A stretch of DNA of 53,863 nucleotides, taken from a virus. Under the pieces are notes generated by a model. That model did no database searches, had not been told where the DNA came from, and worked only from the letters and a program-made list of their open reading frames with translations. Below, in pieces: positions 7,779 to 45,804 of this stretch. The stretch's first letter is position 1, and the number at the start of each line of letters is the position of its first letter. The position numbers and the translations under genes were made by a program. The stretch is from IMG/VR virus record IMGVR_UViG_3300025910_000011, positions 1 to 53,863 of that record. One strand, given 5' to 3'.

Positions 7779-7789
7779 AGGGATAGGCC

Positions 7790-8134
7790 ATGCCAAGCGT
7801 TTTGATCGGTAGCCCACTCGCATCGGGCGCCCAGATCATAGTTTCGGGGTTTCCGTGGTCAGGCCAGCCCGCTACTCCGCAAGGTGGCATTCAACTCCGT
7901 TTGTCGCCGACGTCGAGCGGGAATATCTACATCGGTTTGTCTGGCAATATCACGATGACCAGTGGCGGCATGTTCCTTTCCGGCGGCGGCCTAGCGGATG
8001 GGATGATTCTGGCACCCGGTGATCCCTACTGGATTCCTCGCATTGCTACCGGACTGTCTGGAAACATCACCATCTATGCTCGACATGACGTCGCTTGTTC
8101 TGGTCAGGCGCGATTATTTTATGAGAAGTTTTGA
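7790..8134 (+). CDS. Small Ser-Gly-rich beta protein, virion-like
   Basis: 114 residues of beta-type sequence with many Ser-Gly pairs, a repeated GLSGNITM/GLSGNITI motif (about 48-54 and 86-92) and an ending SGQARLFYEKF. The ending resembles SGQAVLFYD inside the 28322 protein, so the two probably share a small beta-sandwich fold used in decoration or fibre proteins. Function inferred from composition and location. Confidence 0.6.
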   Translation: MPSVLIGSPLASGAQIIVSGFPWSGQPATPQGGIQLRLSPTSSGNIYIGLSGNITMTSGGMFLSGGGLADGMILAPGDPYWIPRIATGLSGNITIYARHDVACSGQARLFYEKF

Positions 8135-8170
8135 TATGTTCATGCGTCGAAGCGTTGCTGCGGAGGCATA

Positions 8171-8875: not shown

Positions 8876-8903
8876 AAAAGTACGTATGCGGACGTGAAGA
8901 CGT

Positions 8904-9107
8904 ATGGCCAGAATCTCTGATATTTCCGCGTGGGCGATGGGGCAGACGTCAGGAACGCTACAAACCAATGATTTTGCGTCAGGTTGCGTTCATGCTTACC
9001 ATTTTGCGTCGGGCGCGATTGTTGGTGTTTCGGGGCTGATCGTTTCAATGAACAGCAGCGGTCAGCTAGTTTTGAGCTTGGACCCGGAAGTGGTCAAAAT
9101 CAAGTAA
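8904..9107 (+). CDS. Small Ser-Gly-rich protein between fibre paralogs
   Basis: 67 residues. Contains one solenoid-like stretch (TLQTNDFASGCVHAYHFASGAIVGVSG) and a short beta tail. The upstream region has no clear ribosome binding site, so expression is less certain. It looks like a fragment or minimal form of the neighbouring repeat proteins. Confidence 0.5.
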   Translation: MARISDISAWAMGQTSGTLQTNDFASGCVHAYHFASGAIVGVSGLIVSMNSSGQLVLSLDPEVVKIK

Positions 9108-9123
9108 CGGGGGCGGGCGGGAT

Positions 9124-29529: not shown

Positions 29530-30677
29530 GCAGCATTCCTCCTTCCTGCTTGACTAGCACGTCCAAACGCATATCACCGGCACGGGTGCCGCCTTCCCAT
29601 TTCTTCCATGCTCGACAGAAGGCGGCGCCCGTCGCAACTTTTGGAACGAAATCGCAAGGGCAGCCATGCAAACAGGGGGAGACGGCGGAACAGAGTGGGT
29701 GCATTCCAGCTAGTGGTGAAACAACTTCGACCAAGCTCGATTCAACAGATGTCGCAGAATTTGTTCGGGGGTTGAATGTAGGCACGAAAGTAGAAATCAA
29801 TCCATCTGGTAGGCGGATCAAACTTGTTGGGGACCTCGGTTCTGCTGAGGTACAACAAGGCGCCGGTGATGGCAAGTGGCGATTGCGGCTGCAAAACGGT
29901 TGGGTCGACATCGTACCGAGTCGAGATGAAGGACTGCGCCTAGCCGTAGCTCATGTATCATCCGCGCAGAAACCGTCCAAACCGTCTGATAAGGTGTCAA
30001 CGCCTGTTGAATCCCCCGCCGTTCCAACTGAACAATTAGTAGAATCGTCAGTTCCGTCAAAAGTTTCTGATGATCGTCAGAAATATGCGGAACTGATTGA
30101 TCGTCGCGTGAGCAAAGGTCTTACAAAGCGATCAAACTTGTCGTCAGAGCAACAAGCGAAAGTTAGGCAGACTCTTACTGGTGTACTGAATCGCATGCCA
30201 GATTCGGCGCTCAAGATGTTGCATCGCAACACTCTGAGCTACCGCTTCTATGAAGATGAGTTTGCGTTGACCAAATCGGCTATGGAGCACAGTCGCGGTT
30301 TTCGTGAGAGATTGGGGGATACCGCTGCTACAGAACGGGGGCAGTCCGGCGTGCTGATAGCCGGGTACTATGACACGGTTTCGACAGCGGTGCATTTGGT
30401 TGCTGAAGGGAATTGGCCTGAAGAAACCTACGCTCATGAATTGACTCACTGTTTGGACGGTCCGAATGGAGCGATCAGTCGCAGTCCTGAGTGGAAAGAA
30501 GCGTTTGGCGAAGAGATATTGGGTGGGGATTTAGGAGTGTATGCGGAAACTAACGATCAGGAAGGTCTTGCTGAATTCGGACGATTGGTCTATGCGGTCG
30601 ATTCGGTATTAGCTCGTGCGAAATACCCGAAATGTAGTGCAGTTTTCATCAAGCATGGACTAATGCCGGAGAAGTGA
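29526..30677 (+). CDS. Multidomain virion protein with HExxH metallopeptidase-like domain
   Basis: 383 residues. Residues 48-64 hold the Cys motif CKQGETAEQSGCIPASG, also present twice in the 30677 protein. Residues about 80-145 form a small beta domain. The C-terminal domain contains YAHELTHCLDG (HELTH at 304-308), the HExxH zinc signature, with ETNDQEGLAEFG (about 341-352) offering the downstream glutamate, as in gluzincin-type peptidases. Likely a zinc protease delivered with the virion or acting on host or capsid proteins. The stop overlaps the next ATG (TGATG). Confidence 0.65.
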   Translation: MSSIPPSCLTSTSKRISPARVPPSHFFHARQKAAPVATFGTKSQGQPCKQGETAEQSGCIPASGETTSTKLDSTDVAEFVRGLNVGTKVEINPSGRRIKLVGDLGSAEVQQGAGDGKWRLRLQNGWVDIVPSRDEGLRLAVAHVSSAQKPSKPSDKVSTPVESPAVPTEQLVESSVPSKVSDDRQKYAELIDRRVSKGLTKRSNLSSEQQAKVRQTLTGVLNRMPDSALKMLHRNTLSYRFYEDEFALTKSAMEHSRGFRERLGDTAATERGQSGVLIAGYYDTVSTAVHLVAEGNWPEETYAHELTHCLDGPNGAISRSPEWKEAFGEEILGGDLGVYAETNDQEGLAEFGRLVYAVDSVLARAKYPKCSAVFIKHGLMPEK

Positions 30678-33600
30678 TGTCTGATCTGCTTCAAATTTTT
30701 GCCGAGCCGTTGGCGACGGAAGATGGCCTGCTTGTTGATACTGTAGTTGCACGTAGCAGAAACCATCCAATCGTTCCGCCGAAGGTTCCTCCTTCCTCAT
30801 TAGTTCAGCACAAAGCCCTTGACAAGCCACACAAGTTCGGCTGTTTGATGCTGCTTCTGCCTCAAGACGTCACCAAGGAAATTACTGATTGGGCAATCGA
30901 GAACGTCCCTGATGTTCACCTGGGACCGGGCGGCCGTGAATTACGCAGCCATGTTACCTGCGCCTACGGATTCGAGGATGATGCGGGGCTGACGGATGAA
31001 TTAAACAAATTAATGAGTCGCAACGGCCCCGTTACCATCGCGCTGTCCGCCCTGTCGATTTTCGAGGGAGACAATCCGGACGGAACGCCGCTCAAGATCG
31101 ACGTTACATCACCGGAATTGATCGCATTGCATGAGGCCATCGCGGGGACGTTTCCGCTGCCAGGCAGCAAGTGGCCGGATTTCAAGCCGCACCTTACCCT
31201 GGCATTTCTTCAACCTGAAGTAGCTGCGTCCTACGTTGGTCTGCCTGCCCCGTTCATTGGCAAACAGGTAACGCTGACACAAGCAGAATACAGTGCGGCC
31301 GACGGCACAATGACGCCGATCCCGCTGACGTTTCTACCGATGTTTGGTCGCAAAGCTGCGCCGACACAACAGCATGCGGCCGGCGTGCCATTCAAAGGTC
31401 CGTCCGGCTCTTGGTTCATGGTCGATCCCAAATCCAATCGCGTTGTTCCCACAAAAGCACCCGGCAGTCAGCAACAACAGTCCGCCCCCAATGCTCTGCA
31501 ACAGGAAGAACCGCAGGAACCGTTGCCTGCGGAACAGGCGGACGCGACCGGCTACAACTATACCCCTGAAGAAGCGCAGGCCGAGAAGAAGTGGCAGGGG
31601 GAATACGCTGATTACGCACTGAAGAACAAGGGGCAGGAACCCGAACCGGGTTTGTTCAAGCGCTTTGTGACGGGCCTCATCAATCCGATCCTGTCCACGT
31701 TGGAACATCTGGCAGAATTGTCAGCCAAGGTTGGGGTCAAGGAAGGAGAAGAGGCAGACGCTCGCATTGATGGGATGCTGAATCAACTCAACCCCGCCGG
31801 TAAGGGCAAGGTCAATTTTTTCGCAACGCTCATCCTGACGCTGTTGTTTGGTAAGGACAAGGTAACTGCGTTGTTGCAGGAACAGGTTGCGAAGAAACCG
31901 AAGCCGCCAGAAACCACCCCGTCATTGCCCGAACAGGCTGACGCAGAAGAGAACGCACGCGAAGCGGCCAAGGAAGAGGAAACGCTGCCGCCCGAACAGA
32001 AGCCCGCAGCAGAAGCACAGGCGGCTGGCGGACAGCCCGAACGTCCCAAAAGCCCATTACGCGCTGACCAGCTGCCACCGGCTGCGGTAGGCGCTGCGCT
32101 GGCCGATTGGGTGCGGGATTATCGCGGGCAATGGCTGGAACTGGCCATGTCCCCACAAGACCTGGCCAATTGGGATGCGGCATTCGACGATCCCAACACA
32201 ACCGATTCCGTTCCCGAACCGCCGGGATGGGTAGACCGTCATCCCAACTGGCAGGAAGAGGAACAGAAAAAGCGCAGTCAACGTCCGGCTGACTGGTATC
32301 CATCAGCAGAAGAATATCTGGACAATTTGTCAGATGAGGAACGTCAGCGACTGAAAGATGAGTTCAATAAAGAAACGGGAGGCGCAACCAAACCCGGTTC
32401 GTTTGAGAAGTGGGTTCAGCGGCGTCGCAATGAACAAAAAGATGAGGCCAAACAGCAAAACACCAAGATAGAAACAAAGCCCACAACTAAGGTAGATCAG
32501 CCTGAACAGCGCCCCAACGCCGATCTTGATGAGATCATGCAGCAAAAGCCGTTGCAGCCGCCCAAGGTGCCACCAGGCAAGCTGCGACACAATCCCGATC
32601 TGGACGACGTTTTTGGCAAGGGGCTGAAGGCGCTGTCCTGGCTGAACAGCAACAACGGCGGGGCATTGGTCGAACCGCCAGCGCAGAAGCGAACGACGAT
32701 CAAGCTGCTGCGAGCGAAATACGGCCGCAAATCCGTTGGTACTTGCAAGCCCGGCGAACGCTCTGATCTAACTGGCTGCACTCCTGCGTCTGGCCATCCG
32801 ACCGGAAAACCCGCCCTGCAACCTCCCGCAGTTCCGCCCATCCCCGGCATTCCTGCACGATTGAAAAACGTCGTCAGCAAGGGCTATGCAAAAGCCAAGC
32901 AGATCGTCGCAGCGTATACGCAGGCACTGGACGAAGCCACTGACGTGCTGGTCATTCGCGAAGCCAAGCAGATCAGCGCCAAACTGAAGAATCTTACGCA
33001 GGCGTTCGCTACCAAGGTAACAGATCGTTACGGTCGCGTAGGCGGTGTTTGCGTGCTGGCATCGGGGCAGATGCTGGGCTGGGGAACGTTTGCGGCTGGT
33101 AGCGCAATGGGCGTTCCGCTCTGGCTACCCGGTTCGAGCATCTGGGGCAGTTTGCCCGGTGCGGCGGTAGCGGAAGTGCTACTGCAAACGACACGCATGG
33201 TTCGCGGTGGCAAGGCGTTGACGCCGGCCGATGATACACGCAAACTGACACCGGAACTGGCCGAACGTTTGTGGAATGAGTTCATCGCTGATCTGATGCC
33301 AGTCTATTTCGCGGAATTGAAACGGGCTGGGGTGCTGCCCAACACTGGCGAAAAGCAGATGACGTATCAGACGAAGGATCGCAACGTTCCATGCAAACAG
33401 GGCGAAACTTCCGAACAGACAGGCTGCATTCCAGCGTCAGGTGATACCAAGAAGCCCCCTGCAAAAACGAATAAAGTAGGGGGGAAAGCACCACCAAAGA
33501 AGGTCGCGAAGCCCGCAGCCGTCCGGCTGGAAATGACCGCGGCCCGGCGAGAAGGCGAAGGCAAGGACGCGAAAATCGTGTTGGCAGATGGACAACCTGC

Positions 33601-34579
33601 TCCAGCACATATTACACCCGCGATGGTCCCGCCCGGCTGGGTTGATGTACAGGTCAGTACGGACCCGAACGCTGATGTACTGGTTACAGCGCGGGACGCC
33701 AAGGGCAACACGAAAACGGTCTACAGCGACAAATGGGATGAGGGGGCCGCTGCTAGAAAGTTTGCCCGCATCCACGATTGCATGCAACAAGGTCCGGCCA
33801 TCGCCGCACAGATTCAACGGGACCGGGCTGATCCGAAGAAAATGGATTCCGCCGATTGCGCCTGGCTGATGAATGTGCAGGGGACGCGGCCCGGTAGTGA
33901 AGCGGACAATAAGGGTGTCGGGCATCTGTTCGGGCAGCCGCTAAGTACAGAAAACGTCGTGCTGGGTGAACCGGACAAACAGGGCGTACCGTCGGTAACA
34001 TTGAAGGTCGGGAATGAGGAAATCCCGATTCGCGACAAGAAGGCCCGCGCCGAAATTGCCCGTCGTGTCAAGCAGGGTGATTCATTGGAGGATACCGGCT
34101 ACTGGCTGAAATCGCATGGGGCGACGACGCTGGAAGGTCGCAACGTGGTAGTAACGGGTGCCGGCGTACTGCTGCGATTCATGGGCAAAGAGTCCGTTTG
34201 GCACGAGCACTACGTTCGCGATCCAAAACTAGCTGAGATGCTGAAAGAACGCAAGAACGCTGCGGGGAACCGTGGTAAGTTGTTCCCTCGTACCAACGAT
34301 GCCAAGGTGAATGCTTACGTCTCTTCACTAGACGGCGGCAAGTTTACGCCGAAGGATTTGCGAACGCGCCGTGGTACTGAAATGGCATTGAAAGAAATTG
34401 CCCGCCGAGACGCACCGCAAACTGAGAAGGATTACAAGAAGACTGTCATGGAGATCGCCGGCATAGTGTCTGGTGTGTTGGGCAATGAGCCAGCTGTTTG
34501 CCTATCTACTTATATCAGTCCGGTAGTGTTCAGCGGCTGGCGCGCCGGGTTGGTCGCGGCGAAGAAAACAAGCGTCTGA
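30677..34579 (+). CDS. Polyprotein: 2H phosphoesterase plus type IB topoisomerase
   Basis: 1300 residues, ATG 30677 coupled to the previous stop. Domain 1 (about 45-220): two H-x-T motifs, HVTCAYG (92-94) and HLTLAFL (172-174), the 2H phosphoesterase signature. Middle: charged linkers, PPKVPP motifs, a piece of capsid N-arm (KALSWLN...NGGALV, from Lys651), Cys motifs at 690 and 906. C-terminal (about 970-1300): type IB topoisomerase with AHITPAMVPPGW, TARDAKGNTK, ATTLEGRNV, GK, FTPKDLRTRRGT and the catalytic Tyr1279 in TYISP. The last 22 codons are a recoded copy; the original end survives at 35414. Probably packaged and ejected with DNA. Confidence 0.75.
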   Translation: MSDLLQIFAEPLATEDGLLVDTVVARSRNHPIVPPKVPPSSLVQHKALDKPHKFGCLMLLLPQDVTKEITDWAIENVPDVHLGPGGRELRSHVTCAYGFEDDAGLTDELNKLMSRNGPVTIALSALSIFEGDNPDGTPLKIDVTSPELIALHEAIAGTFPLPGSKWPDFKPHLTLAFLQPEVAASYVGLPAPFIGKQVTLTQAEYSAADGTMTPIPLTFLPMFGRKAAPTQQHAAGVPFKGPSGSWFMVDPKSNRVVPTKAPGSQQQQSAPNALQQEEPQEPLPAEQADATGYNYTPEEAQAEKKWQGEYADYALKNKGQEPEPGLFKRFVTGLINPILSTLEHLAELSAKVGVKEGEEADARIDGMLNQLNPAGKGKVNFFATLILTLLFGKDKVTALLQEQVAKKPKPPETTPSLPEQADAEENAREAAKEEETLPPEQKPAAEAQAAGGQPERPKSPLRADQLPPAAVGAALADWVRDYRGQWLELAMSPQDLANWDAAFDDPNTTDSVPEPPGWVDRHPNWQEEEQKKRSQRPADWYPSAEEYLDNLSDEERQRLKDEFNKETGGATKPGSFEKWVQRRRNEQKDEAKQQNTKIETKPTTKVDQPEQRPNADLDEIMQQKPLQPPKVPPGKLRHNPDLDDVFGKGLKALSWLNSNNGGALVEPPAQKRTTIKLLRAKYGRKSVGTCKPGERSDLTGCTPASGHPTGKPALQPPAVPPIPGIPARLKNVVSKGYAKAKQIVAAYTQALDEATDVLVIREAKQISAKLKNLTQAFATKVTDRYGRVGGVCVLASGQMLGWGTFAAGSAMGVPLWLPGSSIWGSLPGAAVAEVLLQTTRMVRGGKALTPADDTRKLTPELAERLWNEFIADLMPVYFAELKRAGVLPNTGEKQMTYQTKDRNVPCKQGETSEQTGCIPASGDTKKPPAKTNKVGGKAPPKKVAKPAAVRLEMTAARREGEGKDAKIVLADGQPAPAHITPAMVPPGWVDVQVSTDPNADVLVTARDAKGNTKTVYSDKWDEGAAARKFARIHDCMQQGPAIAAQIQRDRADPKKMDSADCAWLMNVQGTRPGSEADNKGVGHLFGQPLSTENVVLGEPDKQGVPSVTLKVGNEEIPIRDKKARAEIARRVKQGDSLEDTGYWLKSHGATTLEGRNVVVTGAGVLLRFMGKESVWHEHYVRDPKLAEMLKERKNAAGNRGKLFPRTNDAKVNAYVSSLDGGKFTPKDLRTRRGTEMALKEIARRDAPQTEKDYKKTVMEIAGIVSGVLGNEPAVCLSTYISPVVFSGWRAGLVAAKKTSV

Positions 34580-35333
34580 AAGGCCAGCCCCGTTTGATCC
34601 TGTGGTGCAATGTGCTGTAGGAAAGGCCGGTATGGGCGCACCATTCGAGCAACGTCTTGGTTTCGCCGTTGATTGTGACGGCGGTCTGTTTCGTGAGCAC
34701 TCTTGCTGGCGTGGTCAATGCTTCTGCGACAGTCCAGCCTTTGGAGAGTCTGCCCCTAATGACGCCGGACGGAAGCCCGACGATTTCAGCCCATTCTGCA
34801 AGACATTTGGTCTTTCCATTATGTTCAATCAGGTGGTTGCGTTTCTGATTTCTTGCTTGTTGGGTATCGGTAGCCCAGCGACAGTTGCCCGGTTCGTAGT
34901 TACCGTCGCTGTCGATGCGGTCGATGGAATGACGAATGGATGGACGCGGCCCCATGTCAGCCAGAAACGCTGTGAAAGAGTCCAGCCACCTTTGGCAAAC
35001 TTTGATGCCCCGTTGACCGTAGCCGGGACATTCAGGGTCGAGGCATCGTCGTTTCATGGATGTCCAACTGCTGTGGGTAGAACGGTAGTGCCAACGGGGG
35101 CCTCGTCGTTTGATGCCCCTTCTTTTTCCAAAGCAACGAATGCAGCCGGTGCTCTTGCCACTGGTCAAGTTGCCGCCATAGACGACGCCTCGGCCACCGC
35201 ATCGGCACCGGCAGTTCCAATAGGAAAGCGTCTTCCTTTTGCCCGCGTAGCTTTCGACTGTCCATTCCCCAAAGGACTTCCCAATGAGGTTTTGGAACAG
35301 TGCGTGAACAGGGATAGGGTAAGAGGCGTTCAT
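34530..35333 (-). CDS. Homing endonuclease inserted at the topoisomerase active site
   Basis: 267 residues from ATG 35333 (GGAGG upstream on the minus strand). Free-standing phage endonuclease of the SIDRIDSDGNYEPGNCRWA family: an N-terminal domain with C-R-C-R-C-G and SGKSTGCIRC, a core with WTSMKRRCLDPECPGYGQRGIKVCQRWLDSF and the SIDRIDSDGNY motif, then two helix-turn-helix-like repeats (KTKCLAEWAEIVGLPSGVIRGRLSKGW; KTLLEWCAHTGLSYSTLHHRIKRGW). It is opposite to its neighbours, and its 3' end (34530-34579) is antisense to the recoded end of the topoisomerase gene. Confidence 0.85.
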   Translation of the reverse strand: MNASYPIPVHALFQNLIGKSFGEWTVESYAGKRKTLSYWNCRCRCGGRGVVYGGNLTSGKSTGCIRCFGKRRGIKRRGPRWHYRSTHSSWTSMKRRCLDPECPGYGQRGIKVCQRWLDSFTAFLADMGPRPSIRHSIDRIDSDGNYEPGNCRWATDTQQARNQKRNHLIEHNGKTKCLAEWAEIVGLPSGVIRGRLSKGWTVAEALTTPARVLTKQTAVTINGETKTLLEWCAHTGLSYSTLHHRIKRGWPFRRLFSSPRPTRRASR

Positions 35334-35413
35334 GGTCAATTCCTCCAAAGGGCAGAACCGGCGTTGTTCGCTTGCTCTGCATAGTTTACTGAATTGGGGA
35401 ACGGATGCCAATA

Positions 35414-35473
35414 TACATCAGCCCGGTGGTTTGGTCTGGTTGGCGTGCCCGCTTGCCGAAGGAAGGTGTTTGA
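35414..35473 (+). pseudogene. Remnant of the original 3' end of the topoisomerase gene
   Basis: Reads YISPVVWSGWRARLPKEGV, stop at 35471-35473. It matches the end of the 30677 protein from the catalytic Tyr (YISPVVFSGWRAGL...). Of 12 identical residues, 7 use different synonymous codons (for example TAT/TAC, AGT/AGC, GTA/GTG, AGC/TCT, CGC/CGT). The TGA overlaps ATG 35473 of the next gene, the normal coupling of this operon, so this copy occupies the ancestral position. Confidence 0.8.
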
Positions 35474-38436
35474 TGCCCCGTTTGCCTGGAATGGAAGATG
35501 CTGATGTGTATTTCGGCGACGCGGAAAAACCGCTACCGGATTGGCGCGCCCATGTCGAAGAAGATACCGCAGACGATGATACACTATCGGACGCTGAACA
35601 CGTAGCACTGGTGGCCATGTTGGGGTTTGATCCCAATGAAGGGGAAGACGGCGATACCGAACAGCCTGCGACGCAACCGCCCAAAGTTCCGCCCAGCCCA
35701 TTTAATGACAAGTCTCTGCCAGCGCAAAATGCCAAGCGATGGGTAACGATGGGCGGCCAGGCTTGTGCCGAAGGTGAAGAGGGCGAGCACTGTGGCGGTA
35801 CGCATGTTGAACTGGACGGAGAAGGACGTATTCGTAAAGGCCCCGCTAGCACCATCGGCAAGAAGCCCGATGAACTGCCGAAGCGGAATAGCCTCAAGCC
35901 GCCTTCCATTGATTCGCTGCTGACCAATCGGCCGCGCTGGTCCCCGAATAAGCCCGCTGCCCCCAAGATCGAAAAGCCGAAAGAGGAGAAGCCCAAGGAA
36001 GAACCAGCGGCCCAAACGTCCCCAACCGAAGAACCCAAAGCACCCGAACCGCAGCCGGAAGAAACGGTACTGGACGAAACACCAAAGCAGGAAGCGTTGC
36101 CCGAACAGCCTGCTACAGAAAAGCCGGAGGACAGCAATGGCGAGCAACGAGGACCAGCAAGCGGACCAGCTGCTGAATCGGCTGGAGAAACAGGCGAATC
36201 AGTGGAGACAACGCCTGAGCGACCCGTTGATTCAGCAGCAGATACGGGACGGCCGGATGGTAGTAAGCCCACTGGTGAAGGAACTGCTCGACCTGTTCCC
36301 GCAAAAGTCGAAGTAGTCAACAAGCGGCTGGATCGCTATGAGAAGCTGTTCCGTTCCCGCGGCAATCAGAAGGTCGCCGATTGGATGGGACAGCTGCGTA
36401 ACCATATTGGCGCAGTTGGTATTGATACTGCGTTGGAATCGTTGGGCGAAGAAGTTCAGGGGGAAGGGGAAGAGGTCCAATACGGCGGTCACGATCTGGA
36501 CGGTAATGGGGACGCCAATTTCATCGAAAAATATCTGGATCGTGCGGGCATCAGCTTGATTCATGGTACGGCCCCCAGCGGTTCCAAGCGGGCCATTTCC
36601 ACCGTCTCGCAATCGACTGATGATGAAGGCTTGCACGAACGCGGCGATGAACGAGACTACTTCCCGCAACTGCAAACGCTGCGGGATAAACTGGACGAAA
36701 CACAGCATCTGCCGGGGCTGGAGAACAGTGAAGACCTTGGCAAACTGATGGGCCAGGAGTTTGGTACGGCTGTTCCTGAATTCACGCCCGATGTTATCAA
36801 GAAACTTGACGCTACCTATGGGGAAGACAAATGGATTGTCAAATCCTACGGCGACGAGGCATACGCCGGCTATGGCATCTTCTTCCCGCAGCGTATCCGC
36901 CAAATCCAGCAGGATGCAAAAAATTCCATGTGGGCCAGTGGGGGTGAATTGGCGAAGCATGGTTTTGAGCATGTCCGTGAGAAGTTGGGGGACGATGGTT
37001 TTAGAGCTGCATTGGCTGGAGAAGGCAAAACGGTAGACGATGCTTTGTTTCGCGTCGGCGACAACGTCGGCGGTCAAGAGCAGGACGTTTACTACGACGA
37101 GAAGAACGACCGTTACAACAAGATCGCCAAATCCGCCAGCGGCCAGAACGCCACACAGCAGGAATTCTTGGAACGCCACGCCGCGCTCAACGCCCTCTGG
37201 CCCGAGTTAGGCTACAAGTTCGAGGGGCAGACGCGAGACGGGAAACCGATCATCTCCATGAACAGCATCGGCGGCGAAACGCCCACGGCACAAGAGGTAG
37301 ACGACTGGCTCTGGGACAACGACTGGGAGCCGGCCGATAAGGGCTGGGAGCGCGGCGGCTACGAAGCTGCCGAAGGGCCGGATGCCTGGCGAAACCGCCG
37401 CACGGGCATTACGATCGGGGACACCCATCAGGGCAATTGGAAGAAGGTCGATAACGAGTTGGTGCCGATCGACGTGGACGTAAGCAACATCAACGTCAAC
37501 AAGCTACCCAAGAGGCTCACGCATGATCGTGTCGTAGGCGTGAAGCACAAGGACGGTGAAGTGTTTCGCTTCGGGAGTCGTAAGTACGAAAAGCTCTACG
37601 GAGACGCCCGAGCCGCTGCCGATTCGGCATGGCGAGCAGCCCCCAATGAGGCCGCAACGGCTGTATCCAAAGGCCGTTTCATGGCCTCCCCGGCGTTTCC
37701 TGTGGTAGGCATCACCAACGAGGAGCGGGCGCAGGGCATTACGTTCAAGAAGGGACAGGAAGGCCGCGTCCATATCGTCACCCGCAATGGCAAAGCAGAG
37801 ATTGTCCCGCATTCGACGTGGCTGAAGATGGAACCGATGCCAGTAGTGTTTGAGGATGATGACACAAAAGCGATGGCGCAGGCTGCGGTAGACGCGATCA
37901 ACGCGCTGCCTGAATCAGAACGGAACGGGCAGTTGTACGCTCCGGATATCGTCAAGACGACGGATGGCTACCGTGTCGTTGAGGCGAACCCAGCGAATCA
38001 AGCCGGAGCGAGCGGCTACCTCCAAGATAATCCCATAATCATAGATTCATATGTTAGTTCGTTGACTGGTCGGGAACCGGCACACGTGTCCTTCATTCGC
38101 AAGCTGCTCAGTTCGCGAAAGAAGGAAGGACACAAATCGTTCCCAATGCCACCGCTTCTGAAGTCAATGCAGGAAGGGCTTCTTATGAACAAGCACGTTA
38201 AGGCGGCTGAAGAAGCCCGTCGGCTAGAAGCCAAGTTGAAGGCGCAACGGAAGCCTGCTGTGTATACTCTGCATTGGCAGTATCACGATAATAAGCCCAT
38301 CAATGGTTGGAAATTCTCAACGCTGAGTGGTGCCGAAGCGGCGGCCGATACCTATTTGTCGGAAAATCACGAACGGGGTGTCGGTGTTTATATCGAAGGC
38401 ACAGACGGTAGCAGCAGTTTCTACGGAAGGGATTGA
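35473..38436 (+). CDS. Polyvalent virion protein with kinase-like and ATP-grasp-like domains
   Basis: 987 residues from ATG 35473 (AAGGAAGG, TGATG coupling); the frame upstream of this is a shadow. N-terminal acidic region, PPKVPPS and a KSL site (80-82), a Cys-rich GEEGEHCGGTHVELDGEGRIRKGP segment (about 100-125), then a Pro/Glu-rich linker to about 280. About 454: WIVKSYGDEAYAGYGIF. About 535-680: a domain resembling the kinase found in polyvalent phage proteins, with DTHQGNW (about 650) and LVPIDVDV as catalytic loop and metal motif. About 740-850: ATP-grasp-like, with GRVHIV and YAPDIV...VVEANPANQAG. Likely virion-borne enzymes acting on host targets at infection. Confidence 0.6.
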   Translation: MPRLPGMEDADVYFGDAEKPLPDWRAHVEEDTADDDTLSDAEHVALVAMLGFDPNEGEDGDTEQPATQPPKVPPSPFNDKSLPAQNAKRWVTMGGQACAEGEEGEHCGGTHVELDGEGRIRKGPASTIGKKPDELPKRNSLKPPSIDSLLTNRPRWSPNKPAAPKIEKPKEEKPKEEPAAQTSPTEEPKAPEPQPEETVLDETPKQEALPEQPATEKPEDSNGEQRGPASGPAAESAGETGESVETTPERPVDSAADTGRPDGSKPTGEGTARPVPAKVEVVNKRLDRYEKLFRSRGNQKVADWMGQLRNHIGAVGIDTALESLGEEVQGEGEEVQYGGHDLDGNGDANFIEKYLDRAGISLIHGTAPSGSKRAISTVSQSTDDEGLHERGDERDYFPQLQTLRDKLDETQHLPGLENSEDLGKLMGQEFGTAVPEFTPDVIKKLDATYGEDKWIVKSYGDEAYAGYGIFFPQRIRQIQQDAKNSMWASGGELAKHGFEHVREKLGDDGFRAALAGEGKTVDDALFRVGDNVGGQEQDVYYDEKNDRYNKIAKSASGQNATQQEFLERHAALNALWPELGYKFEGQTRDGKPIISMNSIGGETPTAQEVDDWLWDNDWEPADKGWERGGYEAAEGPDAWRNRRTGITIGDTHQGNWKKVDNELVPIDVDVSNINVNKLPKRLTHDRVVGVKHKDGEVFRFGSRKYEKLYGDARAAADSAWRAAPNEAATAVSKGRFMASPAFPVVGITNEERAQGITFKKGQEGRVHIVTRNGKAEIVPHSTWLKMEPMPVVFEDDDTKAMAQAAVDAINALPESERNGQLYAPDIVKTTDGYRVVEANPANQAGASGYLQDNPIIIDSYVSSLTGREPAHVSFIRKLLSSRKKEGHKSFPMPPLLKSMQEGLLMNKHVKAAEEARRLEAKLKAQRKPAVYTLHWQYHDNKPINGWKFSTLSGAEAAADTYLSENHERGVGVYIEGTDGSSSFYGRD

Positions 38437-38504: not shown

Positions 38505-38537
38505 ACTGCCTCAGCAATGCCAGTGGAGGGTGCGGCG

Positions 38538-39245
38538 ATGGAACCACTGACGGTACGGCAAAATCATCTGGTACGCAAGAATTTCGGTCTGGTCGGCTGC
38601 ATCATCAAGCAACGCCTGCGTCGTAATGATCCGTTCGTTCATCGCCTGGAATGGGAAGAGAACTACCAAAACGGCGTGCTGGGCTTGATTGCTGCCGCCC
38701 AGCAATTCGACCCCACCCGCGGCTATCAATTCAGCACCTACGCCGGTCGTGTCATTGTGCGCTATCTGACGTTACTGGCCGCACGAACCTGTCTACCGGG
38801 CTGGCCCGCCTACCTGTTCCAGCCACACGCATCAACCAAATCTCTGAGCGAAAAAGAACGGGGGCGCTGGGAGCAACGCCATGCGGCGATGCTGCACCAG
38901 CTGGCTACCGAACCACAGGACGAGATGGACGCCGCGGTCGCGTCCCGCCTGATCGACGATCTGCCGGTGGATCATCTTGAGTGGGAAGATGAGATCACCT
39001 TGCTGCATTCCCGTTTGCAGCTGCTAACGCTTCCGCAGCAGCAATCGGTGCAGTCGTACTATTGGGATGGGGAGACTGCGAATACAATCAGCGTGAAGGC
39101 TGGCGTGACCAGAGAAACGATACGACAACGGCTGCTGAGTGCTGTGAATACGCTGCGGGAAGCCTATGGCCTGCCACGCATTCGACGGAAGCGCAGGAAA
39201 AAGACGGTTTCCCTAGACGAAAACCCCGCGTCAACGTTAGGCTAA
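38538..39245 (+). CDS. Phage RNA polymerase sigma factor (sigma-70 family)
   Basis: 235 residues from ATG 38538 (GGAGGG upstream); ATG 38517 is the alternative. Region 2: NHLVRKNFGLVGCIIKQRL...GVLGLIAAAQQFDPTRGYQFSTYAGRVIVRYL, the core RNA polymerase and -10 binding region with the typical FDP-x-R-G-x-x-F-S-T-Y. Region 4: LLTLPQQQSVQSYYWDGETANTISVKAGVTRETIRQRLLSAVNTLRE, a helix-turn-helix for -35 recognition. No region 1.1 and only a short region 3. It should redirect host RNA polymerase to phage promoters. Element C overlaps its last 12 codons, making elements A-D attractive targets. Confidence 0.85.
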   Translation: MEPLTVRQNHLVRKNFGLVGCIIKQRLRRNDPFVHRLEWEENYQNGVLGLIAAAQQFDPTRGYQFSTYAGRVIVRYLTLLAARTCLPGWPAYLFQPHASTKSLSEKERGRWEQRHAAMLHQLATEPQDEMDAAVASRLIDDLPVDHLEWEDEITLLHSRLQLLTLPQQQSVQSYYWDGETANTISVKAGVTRETIRQRLLSAVNTLREAYGLPRIRRKRRKKTVSLDENPASTLG

Positions 39246-39264: not shown

Positions 39265-39474
39265 ATGGCAAGTGACGGCCAGAGCAAGGAAGAACTGTTT
39301 CGGGATGGGCTAGGAGATGTGGTAGGTATCGCGGAGAAATTCATCGCGTTATGCCCTACTACAGCAGAACTGGTCGCAGTGTTGCGATTAGGTCTGGAAA
39401 ATGACGCCCAGCTGAACTTTCTGATGCGTACCGTGGAATTGGTACGTTCAGTCGACGTGAAGAGGCGTTCGTGA
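39265..39474 (+). CDS. Small hypothetical protein, first gene of capsid operon
   Basis: 69 residues, mildly acidic and helical (KEELFRDGLGDVVGIAEKFIALCPTTAELVAVLRLGLENDAQLNF). Starts the run behind element C and overlaps the protease gene by four bases (GTGA). No motif recognised. Confidence 0.55.
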   Translation: MASDGQSKEELFRDGLGDVVGIAEKFIALCPTTAELVAVLRLGLENDAQLNFLMRTVELVRSVDVKRRS

Positions 39475-42400
39475 GTTACGACGTCAAAGACCTGTTCAAC
39501 GCACGCCAGGAGCGGCTGCCCGGCTACGGCTACAAACTGACCGAAGGTGGTCAGTATGGCCAGTTCGGGATGGACGTCGTCACCGATGGCGATCCCGAAG
39601 TCGATGAACAGGAAATGAGTTTTCTGCTGCCCTATGCTTGTGGGCTACGCAGAGACGGCGTCGGTGATCTGGTAGAAATCGAAGGCATAGACTATTCCCG
39701 CCACAGACTCAATCCAGTGTCTCTCATAGACCACGGCAAGCAGGTCGTGCTGCCGTTGGGCAAGACGGAAAATCCTACAACGGGCGAATACGCAAGCTAT
39801 TCCGATCCAGTTACCAAGATGGCGACGGATCGCGTGTGGGTGTATCAGGGCAAGGGACTGGCCAACGTAGATCGCGGACAGGAATACGATCATGCCGTTC
39901 TGTGCGAACAAATCTTTGACTTGTGGCGGCAGAAGTTCCTACGCAGCGGATCGCTGGGCTATCAGGTAATCGACGCCCGCCCGCTGGAACCGGATTACAT
40001 TCGCGGTCTGCCGGCTGGTGCCCATCTGCTGAAGGTGCTCAAGCTGGAATCGTCTGTAGTGGTGATGCCAGCAAACATGGATACCGTCAGCAAGATGCTG
40101 TCGCCGGGCAATCGCGTTTGCGGCAAGGTGTTGTCGCCAGTGCTGGTCAAAAGCCTGACACTGTTCGTTCCTGCAAAGACGAAGACGATCAGTGGGTATG
40201 AAGGCAAGGGACTGACCGAGGATGAAGCCGCCGCCAAAGTGGAAGCACAGAAATCTCAGTTGCCGCACGTTCGCGAAGGCATGCACCAGTGTGGTAAGTG
40301 CCAGAAACGGTATTACACCGATGCCAAAGCGTCTGCTTGTTGCGGCAACGGCGTGGTTCGTTTACGGGGTAAATCCCTCGAAGTGCCGGTGCCCATGACA
40401 GAAGACCTGTCCGAAACCAACACGCCCCCAGCTGTGTTCGAGCCGGGCGTGGGCGCCAAAGAAATTCCCGGTGATCTGAACTGGCTCAAGGAAGAACAAA
40501 CGGAAGCCGAACACAAGGCCATCCGTATGAAATACCGCAAGAAAAGCGATTTCATGGTCACGTCTGACCAGGCCGGCGGTTATGTCCGCTGGTGGGTCGA
40601 AGACATCATGGGGAATGGTCAATCGGCTGCTGGTCCGTTCAAGACGAAGGAAGAAGCGGAAGCACGCGCACGCGACAATGAAGAGAATCGCCAGCGTCAA
40701 CTACGGGAGAGGGGAAATCGACGCAGTCCGCCGTGGCGGAAAGCACTGCCTTCCGATGACATCAGCCCCGAAAAGGCCAAAGAGGTGCTCAAGGATGGTG
40801 AAGTGCATGGCCATCCTCTCACTGAAAAACAGCGCGGGATGTTTGGTGCTGCTGCGGGGAAAGACAAGGAACTGAAGGCTCTCCGCAAGAAGTATCGCAA
40901 GGGGCTAGGACAGGGCCGTGCAGAGAACATCATCTACACGCACAATGTCAATGAGCGGGTGCAAGTTGGGATGAAGTTGACTGCCCGCGAGGCCATTTGG
41001 GTTAACGGCCAATCCGGGAACCCCGGCTCGAAGGTCGCTTCAGCTGGCGATAAAGTGCGGGTAGTGGAAATTACTCCTGACCGTATGTTGCGTGTTGAGA
41101 ATGCGGCGGGCATGCGGGCATTGATTCATCCGACTGCCATACGCAAGAGTTTGCCGCAACAGGGGCAAAAATCCTGGGACGTTGACTATGAGGTCGACGT
41201 TACCAAGCCCAACGGCGATACGGTCATGCTGGCGGTAGGCAACGGACAGGTTGAGGGGGATAGCAGCGTTCCGCCCGCAGTACGTCAGGCCATCGCCAAG
41301 AATCCGCAACGGGGCAGTATGGGCAGTGGCGGAGACGTGTATCGTTGGGAAGGGCATGGGAAATCGCTGCCAACAACTGAAACCAAATCCCTCGACGTCC
41401 GCCGCAAGTACCGTGGGGCCAAATCGGTTCGACGGCGACTGAAGTGCAGCAGTCCCGGCAGCAGCTTGGTTCATGTTGGCAAGAAGGACATCGACAATGC
41501 TCGCACGGAAGCTGAGAGCAAAGGCGTCAAATTCGATGAGATGGGTCCGGTAGGGCTGGACGCCGTCAAGGTGAAGATGACGGGCGACGATGGCGCAATT
41601 GATGCGCTGGCGCAGAAATTCGGCAAAAGGATCAAGTCGATGACCGCCTACAAAGCAGTAGGGGCAGGTACGGTACGCGATTACATCAACCGTGCCGGCG
41701 TCGCCAATCCAGGCGACATCAAATGGTACTTTGACCATCACAAAGACACAATTCTTATCAACGGCACCCCGGCGAGCCATCTCGATCAGATTGTCCAGCA
41801 GGGCGATACGGTTTCCATCGAAGGACGCAAATTCAAATCCCTCAATGGCGAGGCGACACATATGGCTAAGGAACTGAAACGCGAAGTCAAATCAGCCCCG
41901 GATGGTCTGCCCGAAGGCGGCACCGATACCGCACTGGACGCAGCCCCACCGGAGGAAGTTTTCAGCGCTCAGCTGGGCCGGCGCATGCACGCCGATCATG
42001 CCCATCTGATGAAGGACTACGACGATCTGCTGCGCCATAACGAACATGAAGGCATGGGGCAGGCGTTCGCCAAGGTCATGGAAGGACTGGACGCGAACAT
42101 GAGCCATATCGAAACTGCCTTCGGTACGCATCACAAGGATTTGCCCCCGCTGGAAGGGGCGATGGACGACGAAGAGGAAGCAGAAGAAACCGATGAGGGG
42201 ACTGAGGAAGAAGCCCCCGAAGAGGAAGCGGACAGCGGCGAAGAGGCCCCTGCTGAAGAGGTGCTGGACGGGGAGACGAAGGGGCTGAAGGGCAAGAAGA
42301 AAGCCTTGCCCGCCAAGAAGAAAAGTGTCTGTCCTGAGTGCGGCAAGGAGAACTGCACCTGCGGGGAAAAGGCGTTGACCGAAGACGAAGCCGACAAGGT

Positions 42401-43268
42401 CGAAGAGGACATCGACGCCGTCGGCGATGAACTGGTCGAGGAAACGGAAGATACCGAACCGAAGGCCAAGGGACTGGAACCGCATGAAGTGCAGCACGTC
42501 AACGAAGCGGCTGGTTTCATGAAGGAACTGGCCCAGCCGGACAGTCCGTTCGAGGATGAACACCGCATGAAGGCGTATCATCATCACAAGAACCTCGAAC
42601 CGATTGGCATGGAAGATGATGGGGACGAATACCCCATGAAGGCGATGGATGAAGTGACGGAACCGCTGATGGACGTGCTGCCCGAAGGCGACAAGGCCAT
42701 GCACCATCGCAAGGGCATTGCGGCCGCCAGCAAGTATCTCAAGGCGCTTTCAACGGAACGTGCGTTCGGTGACCAGCATCGCGAAGAGGCTGCTCTGCAC
42801 GGCAAGGCATTGGAAGGGGCTACCAATACGCCCGATCCTGAGACGGAAGGCGTTCCTGATGATGCCTTGGAAGGGGCGCCAACGTCTGAGGAAGCTGCGG
42901 AAGATTTGGAGGGCAGCGCTGAAGCGACCTTCGAGCCGGGGGAGATGGGTGAAAAGGGGTTGGGCCGTTTTGGGGAAATCAAGCCTGGAGATCGGTTTTC
43001 CCATCCGGCTTTCGGCGAATTGACGTTTGTGAAATTGACTGGCGATCCTGCGAATACAACTGAAGCGTTGTTCCGCGATTCCCGCAACGAAAACGTCACT
43101 TTGAAAATGACCGATGGCCGGTTGCAGAAGAAATCTCTTCCAGGCAAGAAGTCTGCACCCAAGCCCAAGACGAAGTCTCTGTCTGTTGAACAGCGTACCA
43201 TCGCACTGGCGCGACGTACTCAGGAAGCCGCCCGCAAGATCGCCCAGCTGAACGCACTGTTGGGCTAA
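39471..43268 (+). CDS. Prohead protease fused to a long, repeatedly K-[SAG]-L-marked polyprotein
   Basis: 1265 residues from GTG 39471. Residues about 1-205 are an HK97-type (S78) prohead protease: His88 (SLIDHGK), Ser161 (RSGSLGYQVI) and Glu193 (LESSVVVMPAN) are the likely triad. The remaining 1060 residues contain Cys knuckles (274-291; 954-964), RxKYR-type basic motifs (about 352, 473, 645), several small beta domains and a long acidic, helical scaffold-like part (820-1190). By my count 20 K-S-L, K-A-L or K-G-L triplets occur, often at domain borders, e.g. 227, 301, 424, 559, 631, 639, 944, 1112, 1221, 1235. HK97 protease cuts after a Lys before Ser-Leu, so self-processing into several products is likely. 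The capsid gene follows. Confidence 0.8.
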   Translation: MSYDVKDLFNARQERLPGYGYKLTEGGQYGQFGMDVVTDGDPEVDEQEMSFLLPYACGLRRDGVGDLVEIEGIDYSRHRLNPVSLIDHGKQVVLPLGKTENPTTGEYASYSDPVTKMATDRVWVYQGKGLANVDRGQEYDHAVLCEQIFDLWRQKFLRSGSLGYQVIDARPLEPDYIRGLPAGAHLLKVLKLESSVVVMPANMDTVSKMLSPGNRVCGKVLSPVLVKSLTLFVPAKTKTISGYEGKGLTEDEAAAKVEAQKSQLPHVREGMHQCGKCQKRYYTDAKASACCGNGVVRLRGKSLEVPVPMTEDLSETNTPPAVFEPGVGAKEIPGDLNWLKEEQTEAEHKAIRMKYRKKSDFMVTSDQAGGYVRWWVEDIMGNGQSAAGPFKTKEEAEARARDNEENRQRQLRERGNRRSPPWRKALPSDDISPEKAKEVLKDGEVHGHPLTEKQRGMFGAAAGKDKELKALRKKYRKGLGQGRAENIIYTHNVNERVQVGMKLTAREAIWVNGQSGNPGSKVASAGDKVRVVEITPDRMLRVENAAGMRALIHPTAIRKSLPQQGQKSWDVDYEVDVTKPNGDTVMLAVGNGQVEGDSSVPPAVRQAIAKNPQRGSMGSGGDVYRWEGHGKSLPTTETKSLDVRRKYRGAKSVRRRLKCSSPGSSLVHVGKKDIDNARTEAESKGVKFDEMGPVGLDAVKVKMTGDDGAIDALAQKFGKRIKSMTAYKAVGAGTVRDYINRAGVANPGDIKWYFDHHKDTILINGTPASHLDQIVQQGDTVSIEGRKFKSLNGEATHMAKELKREVKSAPDGLPEGGTDTALDAAPPEEVFSAQLGRRMHADHAHLMKDYDDLLRHNEHEGMGQAFAKVMEGLDANMSHIETAFGTHHKDLPPLEGAMDDEEEAEETDEGTEEEAPEEEADSGEEAPAEEVLDGETKGLKGKKKALPAKKKSVCPECGKENCTCGEKALTEDEADKVEEDIDAVGDELVEETEDTEPKAKGLEPHEVQHVNEAAGFMKELAQPDSPFEDEHRMKAYHHHKNLEPIGMEDDGDEYPMKAMDEVTEPLMDVLPEGDKAMHHRKGIAAASKYLKALSTERAFGDQHREEAALHGKALEGATNTPDPETEGVPDDALEGAPTSEEAAEDLEGSAEATFEPGEMGEKGLGRFGEIKPGDRFSHPAFGELTFVKLTGDPANTTEALFRDSRNENVTLKMTDGRLQKKSLPGKKSAPKPKTKSLSVEQRTIALARRTQEAARKIAQLNALLG

Positions 43269-43352: not shown

Positions 43353-44795
43353 ATGGCTGTGTTGACTGTGGAGGATCGCCTCCAGAAGAACGAGGAGCAG
43401 ATGTCCTCGTTGACCAAGTCTTTGGACGGCCTCGTCAAGAAGCTGTCCGCTACTCCCGCAGCCGGTCAACCCGGCGTCCAGCAGGTCTTCGGCACGCCGT
43501 GGGCGCGCAATGGCGAAGACCCCCTCACTTCTCGCGGCTTTTCGTTCATGAAGATGCTTGGTTTGTTGACTGGCGGCTGCACGCCAGACAACGCCAAGGT
43601 CGAACTGGACGTACACAACCGCCTGCACAACGCCTTCGTCAAGGAACTGGGCGGCGCTGCTTACGCCTATCAGGGGCTGGGCCGCGACGGCGTCAACCGT
43701 TTCCTGGCGCCGCTGGCGTCATCTTTCCTGCCCGACTACATTGTGGATCGCAAGTTCCGCAATGAGATCAAATCGCTGGTCCTTGCGGGTACGGACGGAG
43801 CCGATCAGGACCATATGGCCTGGATTCGCGGCCGCCAGCTCAAGGCGATGGGCTACGGGCAGAAGGCGCTGTCCTGGCTCAACGAACTGAACGGCGGCGC
43901 TTTGGTTCCGCCTGCGGAACAGGGCGAACTCATCGAACTGCTGCGCAACAAGGAAGCGTGCGTCAACGCCGGCGCCCGCGTGGTGCCGTTGCCGCCGCAG
44001 GGACGTATCAAGTATCCGCGCCAGACCGCAGCTTCGACAACGTACTGGATCGGCGAGAACCGCCCCATTACCGAAAGCAGCATCGGTACGGGTGAAGTGA
44101 CCTTGCAGGCCAAGAAGCTCGCCGTGCTCATCAAGGCCCCGAATGAACTCATCCGCTTCGCTTCCCCGGCTGCGGAAGCATTGATGCGCGATGATATGAC
44201 AAAGGGCCTGGCACTGGGCCTGGACCTGGCTGCGTTGCAGGGTGCTGGCACGGATACGACGCCACGCGGCCTCATCAACATGCCGAACATCACCACCATC
44301 TCCAGCAGCATCACGGCGGCCAACGGTGATCGGCTGGTCGGACAGGATGTCTACCGTATGATCGCGGCCGTGGAAGAGGCCAACGCGGAGTTTGAAGGCT
44401 TCGTGATGCGGCCGAAAACGCTGTACAAGTTCTACCAGCTGCGTGCGGACGCGGTGGCGCAGGGCGATTCGGCAGGGCCATTCCTGTACAATCTGATCCG
44501 CGAAGCTGGCATGGGCATCGAGCCCACGTTGGCCGGCTACCCGGTCACGAAGTCCACGCAGGTCAATCAGGCCCGCGCCAAGGGCAGCGCAACGAACCTG
44601 ACCTACATCATCGGCGGCATGTGGAGCGAATTGCTCATCGGTATGTTCGGTGCGATTGAATTCGCGGCGACTACGCTGGGCGATACGCCGTTCCAGAATG
44701 ACCAGACGTGGGTGCGAGGCATCCTGTCCGCGGACGTGGCCGTGCGGCATGAAGCGGCGTTCTGCTTCCTGGATCAGCTCGACACAACGCTGTGA
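43353..44795 (+). CDS. Major capsid protein (HK97 fold)
   Basis: 480 residues. The N-terminal 170 residues are helical and charged (delta-domain-like, acting as scaffold); then KALSWLNELNGGALVPP at 171-187, the usual start of a mature HK97 capsid chain (glycine-rich N-arm followed by VPP), and IELLRN. After it come the E-loop region (WIGENRPITESSIGTGEVTLQAKKLAVLI), the spine helix and P/A domains (ALQGAGTDTTPRGLIN, EFEGFVMRPKTLYKF, GYPVTKSTQV) and a C-terminal DVAVRHEAAFCFL strand. Cleavage after Lys171 would leave 309 residues. The upstream fused protease is the obvious processing enzyme. Followed by a homing endonuclease gene. Confidence 0.9.
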   Translation: MAVLTVEDRLQKNEEQMSSLTKSLDGLVKKLSATPAAGQPGVQQVFGTPWARNGEDPLTSRGFSFMKMLGLLTGGCTPDNAKVELDVHNRLHNAFVKELGGAAYAYQGLGRDGVNRFLAPLASSFLPDYIVDRKFRNEIKSLVLAGTDGADQDHMAWIRGRQLKAMGYGQKALSWLNELNGGALVPPAEQGELIELLRNKEACVNAGARVVPLPPQGRIKYPRQTAASTTYWIGENRPITESSIGTGEVTLQAKKLAVLIKAPNELIRFASPAAEALMRDDMTKGLALGLDLAALQGAGTDTTPRGLINMPNITTISSSITAANGDRLVGQDVYRMIAAVEEANAEFEGFVMRPKTLYKFYQLRADAVAQGDSAGPFLYNLIREAGMGIEPTLAGYPVTKSTQVNQARAKGSATNLTYIIGGMWSELLIGMFGAIEFAATTLGDTPFQNDQTWVRGILSADVAVRHEAAFCFLDQLDTTL

Positions 44796-44868: not shown

Positions 44869-45804
44869 GTGGCTGGAATACCAAAAGAACTACGCGAATA
44901 CCGGCGGAACATGATTGCGATGCGGTACGAATCCGAAGGATCAGTTCCCATAGCGCGTGATCTCGGCATCACTCGTGATGGTGTTTTGGCTATGGCCAAA
45001 CGTATGGGGCTGGTCTATCGGGATCGATACAAGCATCATGGCGACAAAGTTCGAGCCGCGTCAAAGCGGCCCGGTAATGGGTATCGCAAGCGGGCGGAAA
45101 ACAACGTCTCTTGCAATATCCACTACTTCGACAAGTGGACGCCAAACATGGCGTATGTCTTAGGGTATCTGTTCGCCGATGGTTGCGTTGGGAAGAGCGG
45201 GCTGAGTGTTCGCTTGTGGCTCAGCGACAAAGACATGGAGGTACTGAAGTTCGTGAAGCATGAATTGAAATCGGTGTTGCCGATTCATCATGTGCCGGCA
45301 AAAGGATCGACCGGCCCATCATCGTACATCGATTTGTGCAGCATCGTGCTGATTGAACGTCTCGCTGAATTGGGATTGTATCACCGCAAAACGTTTGCGG
45401 ATTATCCATATCCGCAAATACCCGATCAATGTCAACCGCATTTCATTCGAGGTGTGTTTGATGGAGATGGGAGCACTTCCGCAGAAGGCGGTGGATGCTA
45501 CGTCAAATTCATCGGCCCTGTTCGATTTATCAATGGATTGATTGCTGCACTAGTGCGTTGCGCCGGTTTGATGGTGAAGACGCCGCAAATCGATCATGGG
45601 GTGGAAGCAACATGGGCGACTGTCACATGGACGCATCAAGACGATTTGCGTGCGTTCTACAACTACATCTACCCGCAAGATGCCCTTGTGTTTTGCCTGG
45701 AACGCAAAAAGAAAGTCCTGACAAAGTGGCTGGCGGTTCCCAGAAATCGCAATCGGATTCCGCCCAAATATCGTCGCACTGAACACAAACCCGAGGAGGA
45801 CTAG
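44869..45804 (+). CDS. LAGLIDADG homing endonuclease
   Basis: 311 residues from GTG 44869. Two LAGLIDADG motifs, AYVLGYLFADGCV (about 104-116) and HFIRGVFDGDGST (about 187-199), each with its catalytic Asp, define a monomeric two-repeat enzyme. The N-terminal 60 residues form a helix-turn-helix (VPIARDLGITRDGVLAMAKRMG). It is free-standing, placed between the capsid and decoration genes without disrupting either, and its 3' end provides GAGGAGG for the next gene. Translation seems controlled by the hairpin over its binding site. Confidence 0.85.
   Translation: MAGIPKELREYRRNMIAMRYESEGSVPIARDLGITRDGVLAMAKRMGLVYRDRYKHHGDKVRAASKRPGNGYRKRAENNVSCNIHYFDKWTPNMAYVLGYLFADGCVGKSGLSVRLWLSDKDMEVLKFVKHELKSVLPIHHVPAKGSTGPSSYIDLCSIVLIERLAELGLYHRKTFADYPYPQIPDQCQPHFIRGVFDGDGSTSAEGGGCYVKFIGPVRFINGLIAALVRCAGLMVKTPQIDHGVEATWATVTWTHQDDLRAFYNYIYPQDALVFCLERKKKVLTKWLAVPRNRNRIPPKYRRTEHKPEED

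Follow-up and report, generated by a model that had tools for sequence, protein, structure and literature searches.

Phage prohead proteases trim capsid, scaffold and internal proteins, and usually do so from separate genes. In lambda gpC/Nu3 and in the herpesvirus protease-scaffold fusions, the protease is fused to or overlaps the scaffold and is released by self-cleavage; to our knowledge, such fusions are cut at few sites and lack a string of small basic modules. The HK97 capsid protein is cleaved at K103/S104 (PMC10275583). In T4, the protease gp21 chops the scaffold into many fragments and trims internal proteins, which are basic, inside the prohead (PMC9026906). The SPN3US protease gp245 cleaves off its own C-terminal propeptide and processes long propeptides at several motif sites (PMC10052503). 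In both of these phages, cutting at many short-motif sites lets the scaffold exit the head (PMC9026906, PMC10052503). In phage polyvalent proteins, processing has been attributed to built-in zincin metallopeptidases (PMC5512222). Here we analyze a stretch of DNA of 53,863 nucleotides from an uncultivated phage (IMG/VR record IMGVR_UViG_3300025910_000011; hereafter the window), in which one open reading frame (ORF) at 39471-43268 on the + strand encodes a fusion of 1265 residues that looks like a prohead protease followed by a very long tail. Prohead proteolysis is already known; what would be new is the placement of the protease and its substrates on one long multi-site chain, and the open-licence papers that we searched describe no prohead protease carrying its substrates in this way.

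Our main finding is that the fusion is, quite likely, a polyprotein of protease, internal proteins and scaffold that would process itself by cutting at K/[SAG]-L, a reading for which the statistics of the motif, the homologues and the agreement with the capsid junction give good support at the sequence level. The fusion gene has a GTG start, which overlaps the stop codon of a small gene upstream, and runs through 1265 codons in a single frame that is open throughout; 84 bases separate it from an HK97-type major capsid gene at 43353-44795. The fusion contains exactly 20 K-[SAG]-L triplets, the same count that had been given in an earlier, sequence-only reading of this DNA, whose rough expectation of about two from composition also held (1.87±1.36 in 2000 composition shuffles, maximum 7). 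Among all 400 X-[SAG]-Z pairs, K..L shows the strongest over-representation, and control motifs are near expectation: L[SAG]K (1 versus 1.84 expected), R[SAG]L (2 versus 1.27) and E[SAG]L (2 versus 2.21). Leucine follows 51% of K-[SAG] pairs, versus 0-15% of those in which [SAG] is preceded by R, E, D, Q, T or L. A first-order Markov model, harsher than shuffling because it retains the K-S and S-L pairs, predicts 5.3 sites versus the 20 observed (Poisson P about 1e-6), and no comparable excess was found in other ORFs of the window. Since codons vary between sites and BLAST of the fusion against itself reveals no internal repeat, the sites are not a DNA repeat. They are listed below, with evidence other than the motif count in brackets.

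39852..39860, + strand: K128-GL, within the protease domain, may stay uncut
40149..40157, + strand: K227-SL, conserved putative protease-release site LVK/SLTPY, cut after K (invariant K227 and nearly invariant S228; seven fusions have K[SAG]L here)
40206..40214, + strand: K246-GL
40371..40379, + strand: K301-SL
40740..40748, + strand: K424-AL, left edge of HGHPLT module (conserved-core analysis)
40875..40883, + strand: K469-AL, right edge of HGHPLT module (conserved-core analysis)
40899..40907, + strand: K477-GL
41145..41153, + strand: K559-SL
41361..41369, + strand: K631-SL
41385..41393, + strand: K639-SL, left edge of SSPG module (conserved-core analysis)
41835..41843, + strand: K789-SL, where the acidic part begins (comparison of fusions)
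42279..42287, + strand: K937-GL, where a long acidic helical module ends (comparison of fusions)
42300..42308, + strand: K944-AL
42369..42377, + strand: K967-AL, behind a CxxC...CxC motif
42468..42476, + strand: K1000-GL
42741..42749, + strand: K1091-AL, within a predicted helix (AlphaFold2 model)
42804..42812, + strand: K1112-AL, within a predicted helix (AlphaFold2 model)
42954..42962, + strand: K1162-GL
43131..43139, + strand: K1221-SL
43173..43181, + strand: K1235-SL, where a cut would free the C-terminal helix (AlphaFold2 model)

The motif is not peculiar to the window. Relatives were reached via capsid-protein profiles, which led to homologous fusions at 15 further loci, complete or cut by a contig end, just upstream of related capsid genes. 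Direct queries with the fusion, including against viral contigs, found none. No close relatives in named phages came up in tblastn, whether the query was the complete fusion, the protease domains of two relatives or the HGHPLT or SSPG module, nor with the protease profile against genome contigs or P0003 against viral contigs. A single open frame, 598 to 1956 codons long, encodes the fusion in L013, L014, L020, L022 and L024; in L015 and L018 it is divided between two frames, one after the other. When the window is excluded, no other of the 8000 tripeptides is as over-represented in these fusions as KSL (54 versus 5.8 expected), and K.L leads the gapped pairs (244 versus 95). K[SAG]L is strong singly in L015 (20 versus 2.5), L019 (16 versus 1.8), L024 (15 versus 3.5) and L012 (6 versus 0.6), the broader K[SAGT][LIM] is elevated in most relatives' fusions, and pooling the 16 fusions gives 124 K[SAG]L sites versus 24 expected. 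Of these, 55 coincide with a relative's site, 47 are aligned but unshared and 22 lie in unaligned stretches; since they form about 73 positional groups, most of them unshared, the motif has been gained many times and not merely inherited. Serine is preferred over alanine and glycine after the lysine. The observed/expected ratio for K[SAG]L is 4.55 in fusions, 1.78 in the large upstream proteins and 1.27 in other ORFs, and in the same comparison the fusions hold about as many R[SAG]L and L[SAG]K as expected. A basic mini-motif, R-x-K-Y, is also present in the fusions of the window, L015, L018, L020 and L024; for 11 of its 15 copies, a K[SAGT][LIM] site lies no more than 8 residues upstream.

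A site of this type is also present at the capsid junction, and the fusion begins with a domain that resembles the kind of enzyme that would cut there. The features concerned are as follows.

43353..44795, + strand: major capsid protein of HK97 type, its first 171 residues being the delta domain (PF05065 match beginning at residue 181, E 1.4e-34)
43863..43871, + strand: capsid maturation junction K171/A-L-S-W (K-[AT]-L-S-W in every relative with a readable junction)
39471..40151, + strand: prohead protease domain, residues 1-227, about 25 kDa if freed at K227/S228 (alignment, PF04586 in a relative, Foldseek)
39732..39734, + strand: His88 of DHGK, presumed catalytic (nearly invariant)
39951..39953, + strand: Ser161 of GS-[LI]-GY, presumed nucleophile (nearly invariant)
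40047..40049, + strand: Glu193, presumed third catalytic residue (invariant)

The capsid protein had been said to carry K-A-L exactly at its expected mature start, and this is where we find it: K171-A-L-S-W precedes a Pfam capsid match that begins at residue 181. In all readable cases, the relatives have K-[AT]-L-S-W-[LI]-[ND] just before the capsid fold, so that the PF05065 fold is preceded by an N-terminal domain and a conserved junction, as in HK97-type capsid proteins with a delta-domain scaffold. The fusion gene lies directly upstream of the capsid gene, as for the S78/HK97 prohead protease, and relatives share this order. Its N-terminal domain, which looks like an HK97-type (S78) prohead serine protease, could be aligned in nine other genomes at 42-57% identity (the L019 row spans only the domain end), and the catalytic roles of His88, Ser161 and Glu193 were assigned by position in this alignment. 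One relative (L013) matches PF04586 Peptidase_S78 just under the cut-off (E 5.5e-4, 20.6 bits versus 21), and another (L015) matches phrog_80, head maturation protease (E 0.001). Foldseek with an AlphaFold2 model of the domain, of moderate confidence (predicted local distance difference test, pLDDT, 58.8), gave 36 viral matches at E<=1e-3, the named ones being mostly prohead or head maturation proteases; a PDB search with the same model returned antibody-like noise only. At the end of the domain, the conserved LVK/SLTPY would, as judged from the alignment, release a 25 kDa protease.

Behind the protease domain, the tail falls into two contrasting parts, which gives the fusion a three-part layout.

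40152..41837, + strand: basic modular middle part, residues 228-789, with Zn-ribbon-like, DUF2188-like, HGHPLT, SSPG alpha/beta and other modules (charge, AlphaFold2 islands, shared modules)
41838..43265, + strand: acidic helical scaffold-like C-terminal part, residues 790-1265, with a final predicted helix (charge, predicted helices, relatives)

The middle part (about residues 230-820) is basic, with an isoelectric point (pI) of 9.4 and a net charge of about +19, whereas the C-terminal part is acidic (pI 4.7, about -50). This contrast is repeated in L018, L019 and L008, and most relatives have the acidic helical part too, encoded right before the capsid gene. An acidic helical end together with the conserved K227 site is compatible with the layout of a protease-scaffold fusion, and a scaffold role is predicted. 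The AlphaFold2 model of the tail has low confidence overall (pLDDT 48) with confident islands at about residues 270-290, 430-475, 665-717, 827-897, 1002-1045 and 1072-1120 and in the last helix. The middle modules recur in relatives and can be reordered, HGHPLT coming before SSPG in the window and L019 and after it in L022 and L024; in the window, the HGHPLT module is bracketed by K424/K469 and the SSPG module by K639/KSM722. The tail modules have no confident Pfam or PHROG match, and when the tail was searched with Foldseek, the SSPG module alone had matches, weak ones (E about 0.1) of KH-, PII- and microcompartment-like type. VIA-align gave Z scores of 6-7 for this module and of 8-10 for two helical segments. 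We take these matches and scores as common arrangements, not as identifications. A Pfam scan of the fusion returned no zincin family match, which does not exclude a zincin. In L015, the second half of the split fusion (7599-9857) starts with a domain resembling ribosome modulation factor (RMF), whose match (E 1.3e-5) falls just short of the curated cut-off.

Several observations weigh against the polyprotein reading. For the window protein itself, no match to the S78 family reached significance, and the strict motif is weak in L016 (2 versus 1.05 expected), L018 (5 versus 2.4) and L003 (0 versus 0.27). K128 lies inside the protease domain, K1091 and K1112 lie in predicted helices, and a KSLALGL is conserved inside the mature capsid domain; the motif thus also occurs in folded protein, and not every site need be cut. 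The capsid ORFs as a class have an observed/expected ratio for K[SAG]L of 5.18, mainly from a few conserved positions, one of them within the folded mature domain, so the motif alone is no proof of cutting. The sequence-only reading had also placed many sites at domain borders or before proline. By eye, the placement at borders looks right in the best modules, but when tested across the family by circular shifts it was not significant, with 26 sites in conserved cores versus 30.4±4.2 expected, and proline directly follows only 5 of the 20 motifs; 15 of 19 sites are in predicted disorder, which is borderline (P about 0.06). Placement at domain borders is weakly supported; bracketing of modules by sites was not significant across the family in the circular-shift test, and the rule that sites avoid conserved modules was dropped on the same test.

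From the layout and the motif, we infer which sites would be cut, in what order and with what fate for the pieces. The chain would probably enter the prohead as one unit, held by its acidic helical C-terminal end. Acting after shell closure, the protease would cut after lysine in K/[S>A>G]-L, a site type that it would share with the capsid delta junction: it would free itself at K227/S228, remove the capsid delta domain and cut its own tail, a run of about 1040 residues in which flexible linkers would join short modules (a basic set, then the acidic scaffold-like part, then the C-terminal helix), into roughly 15-20 pieces of about 1-16 kDa. The scaffold pieces would then leave the head, and some basic modules may remain with the DNA as internal or ejected proteins. 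The suggestion that the fusion is chopped into many small head-interior pieces gains from the compact, reordered basic modules, which are candidates for retained internal proteins, and loses for the C-terminal third, which is acidic and helical and looks more like scaffold. Whether basic modules are kept as internal proteins or everything leaves seems to us evenly balanced.

The case for everything leaving is that the whole tail would be a protease-fused scaffold, with sites that only chop it for exit through pores and no piece kept. It draws on T4, in which gp22, gp67 and a further core protein are broken into several fragments, most of which leave (PMC9026906), on the long SPN3US propeptides, which are cut several times (PMC10052503), and on the acidic, helical C-terminal third; we would put it a little short of an even chance. 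Against it, basic, compact modules that are conserved and reordered in relatives, and the RMF-like and KOW-like pieces that relatives carry (both below curated cut-offs), are needless for pure scaffold. In the other account, several tail modules, chiefly the basic ones, would stay in the capsid and pass into the host together with the DNA, in the manner of the T4 internal proteins but encoded on one chain. The basic pI of the middle part and the reshuffling of modules between relatives point this way, as do neighbours with the domain types of packaged polyvalent proteins (2H phosphoesterase and topoisomerase IB, with Kinase-PolyVal below its cut-off) and a similar 2H phosphoesterase plus an ADP-ribosyltransferase in L013. 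No tail module has a confident function, however, and retention cannot be read from sequence; we give this account, too, somewhat less than even weight.

Two other explanations bear on the motif itself. It could be a recurring motif that is never cut and binds the shell, DNA or a partner, and the frequent R-x-K-Y near the sites (11/15) hints at a binding role, either of an uncut motif or of a new N-terminus. We hold an uncut binding motif to be improbable, because the three-residue pattern equals the capsid junction and the known HK97 site, and because arginine is not tolerated in place of lysine and serine is preferred at P1', as expected of protease specificity. Chance, in the form of composition bias in a linker protein with much Lys, Ala and Gly, or DNA repeats within the gene, would have the richness of the fusion in K, A, G and L in its favor, but is refuted by the shuffles, the Markov model, the reversed, Arg and Glu controls, the variety of codons and the self-BLAST, and the recurrence in relatives also speaks against it; we regard it as vanishingly improbable. 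The polyprotein cut at K/[SAG]-L is the reading that we retain as likely.

A second feature concerns other proteins of the phage: the start of the mature capsid protein has a look-alike in a large protein encoded upstream.

30674..34579, + strand: large upstream protein with 2H phosphoesterase (PF13563) and topoisomerase IB (PF01028) domains (Pfam)
32615..32719, + strand: look-alike of the mature capsid N-arm (KALSWLNSNNGGALVEPP) inside the 30674-34579 protein (tblastn E 8e-9 versus own capsid N-arm)

Look-alikes of the form K/[AS]LS..N...GGALV, directly after a lysine and within large non-capsid proteins, are strong in L022 (1372, E 7e-5) and L010/L011 (3736, E 4e-4) and weaker in L013 (2366, E 0.003), L014 (1687, E 0.02) and L019 (824, E 0.06, inside the fusion). 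Because ten shuffled arms reached at best E 0.003, once, the others giving 0.02 or more, those of the window, L022 and L010/L011 are well above chance; those of L013, L014 and L019 are suggestive. Proteins holding look-alikes include 2H phosphoesterases with topoisomerase IB or ADP-ribosyltransferase domains. The window protein is a probable in-trans substrate of the protease, and the look-alike, judged by its resemblance to the arm, is possibly a packaging-and-cutting tag. The most extended version of our model would be that one gene supplies the protease, changeable internal proteins and scaffold, released in the closed shell at K/[S/A/G]-L, and that a copy of the capsid N-arm, K/ALSWLN...GGALV, serves as a tag by which further cargo (the 2H phosphoesterase/topoisomerase/ADP-ribosyltransferase proteins) is brought in and then trimmed by this protease as well; as a whole, we consider this possible but rather unlikely. 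In L014, a 250-residue 2H phosphoesterase (1051-1800) matches Acb1 (anti-CBASS, PF23474) above the cut-off and has a look-alike at its C terminus; it is a possible head-packaged anti-defence protein.

Elsewhere in the window, a 1034-residue protein (35332-38436) contains a single K-S-L, matches Kinase-PolyVal weakly (19.1 bits, against a cut-off of 27) and is probably another packaged polyvalent protein. A sigma-70-like phage factor is encoded at 38517-39245, just upstream of the fusion gene, a LAGLIDADG-type endonuclease gene (44869-45804) is inserted directly 3' of the capsid gene, and the portal gene (1711-3378) is distant, in window coordinates, from the protease/capsid block.

If the polyprotein reading is true, a tailed DNA phage would use a strategy like that of RNA viruses, a list of predicted head-interior peptides could be read from the sequence, and more than 100 sites would give a K/S-L specificity profile for a family close to HK97. 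If the N-arm look-alikes act as tags, they would offer a simple route for loading chosen proteins into capsids.

Comparison with known systems highlights what is shared and what sets the fusion apart. The large neighbouring proteins have mixed domain types, as do the phage polyvalent proteins (PMC5512222), and are probably packaged, whereas the fusion has a prohead serine protease and no zincin found by Pfam. The proposed cutting of scaffold and internal proteins inside the prohead parallels T4 gp21 and its substrates gp22, gp67, gp68 and IPI-III. The T4 proteins, however, are encoded by separate genes and cut after L/I-X-E, unlike the covalently fused parts and K/[SAG]-L motif of the window, and the T4 internal proteins have short N-terminal targeting peptides cut at L/I-X-E; in the fusion, E[SAG]L is not enriched and the modules lie within one chain. 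SPN3US gp245 and phiKZ gp175 offer precedents for what is predicted here, self-removal of a C-terminal propeptide and multi-site cutting of head-protein propeptides, but with a 64-residue propeptide and a glutamate motif versus about 1040 residues and a lysine motif. The parallel with HK97 gp4/gp5 (MEROPS S78) lies in a protease gene just before the gene for an HK97-fold capsid protein with an N-terminal delta domain, and in a capsid junction after lysine and before a small residue plus leucine. The difference is that the HK97 protease is a 32 kDa protein (PMC12749128) without a tail of some 1000 residues, while the tail in the window carries about 19 further sites.

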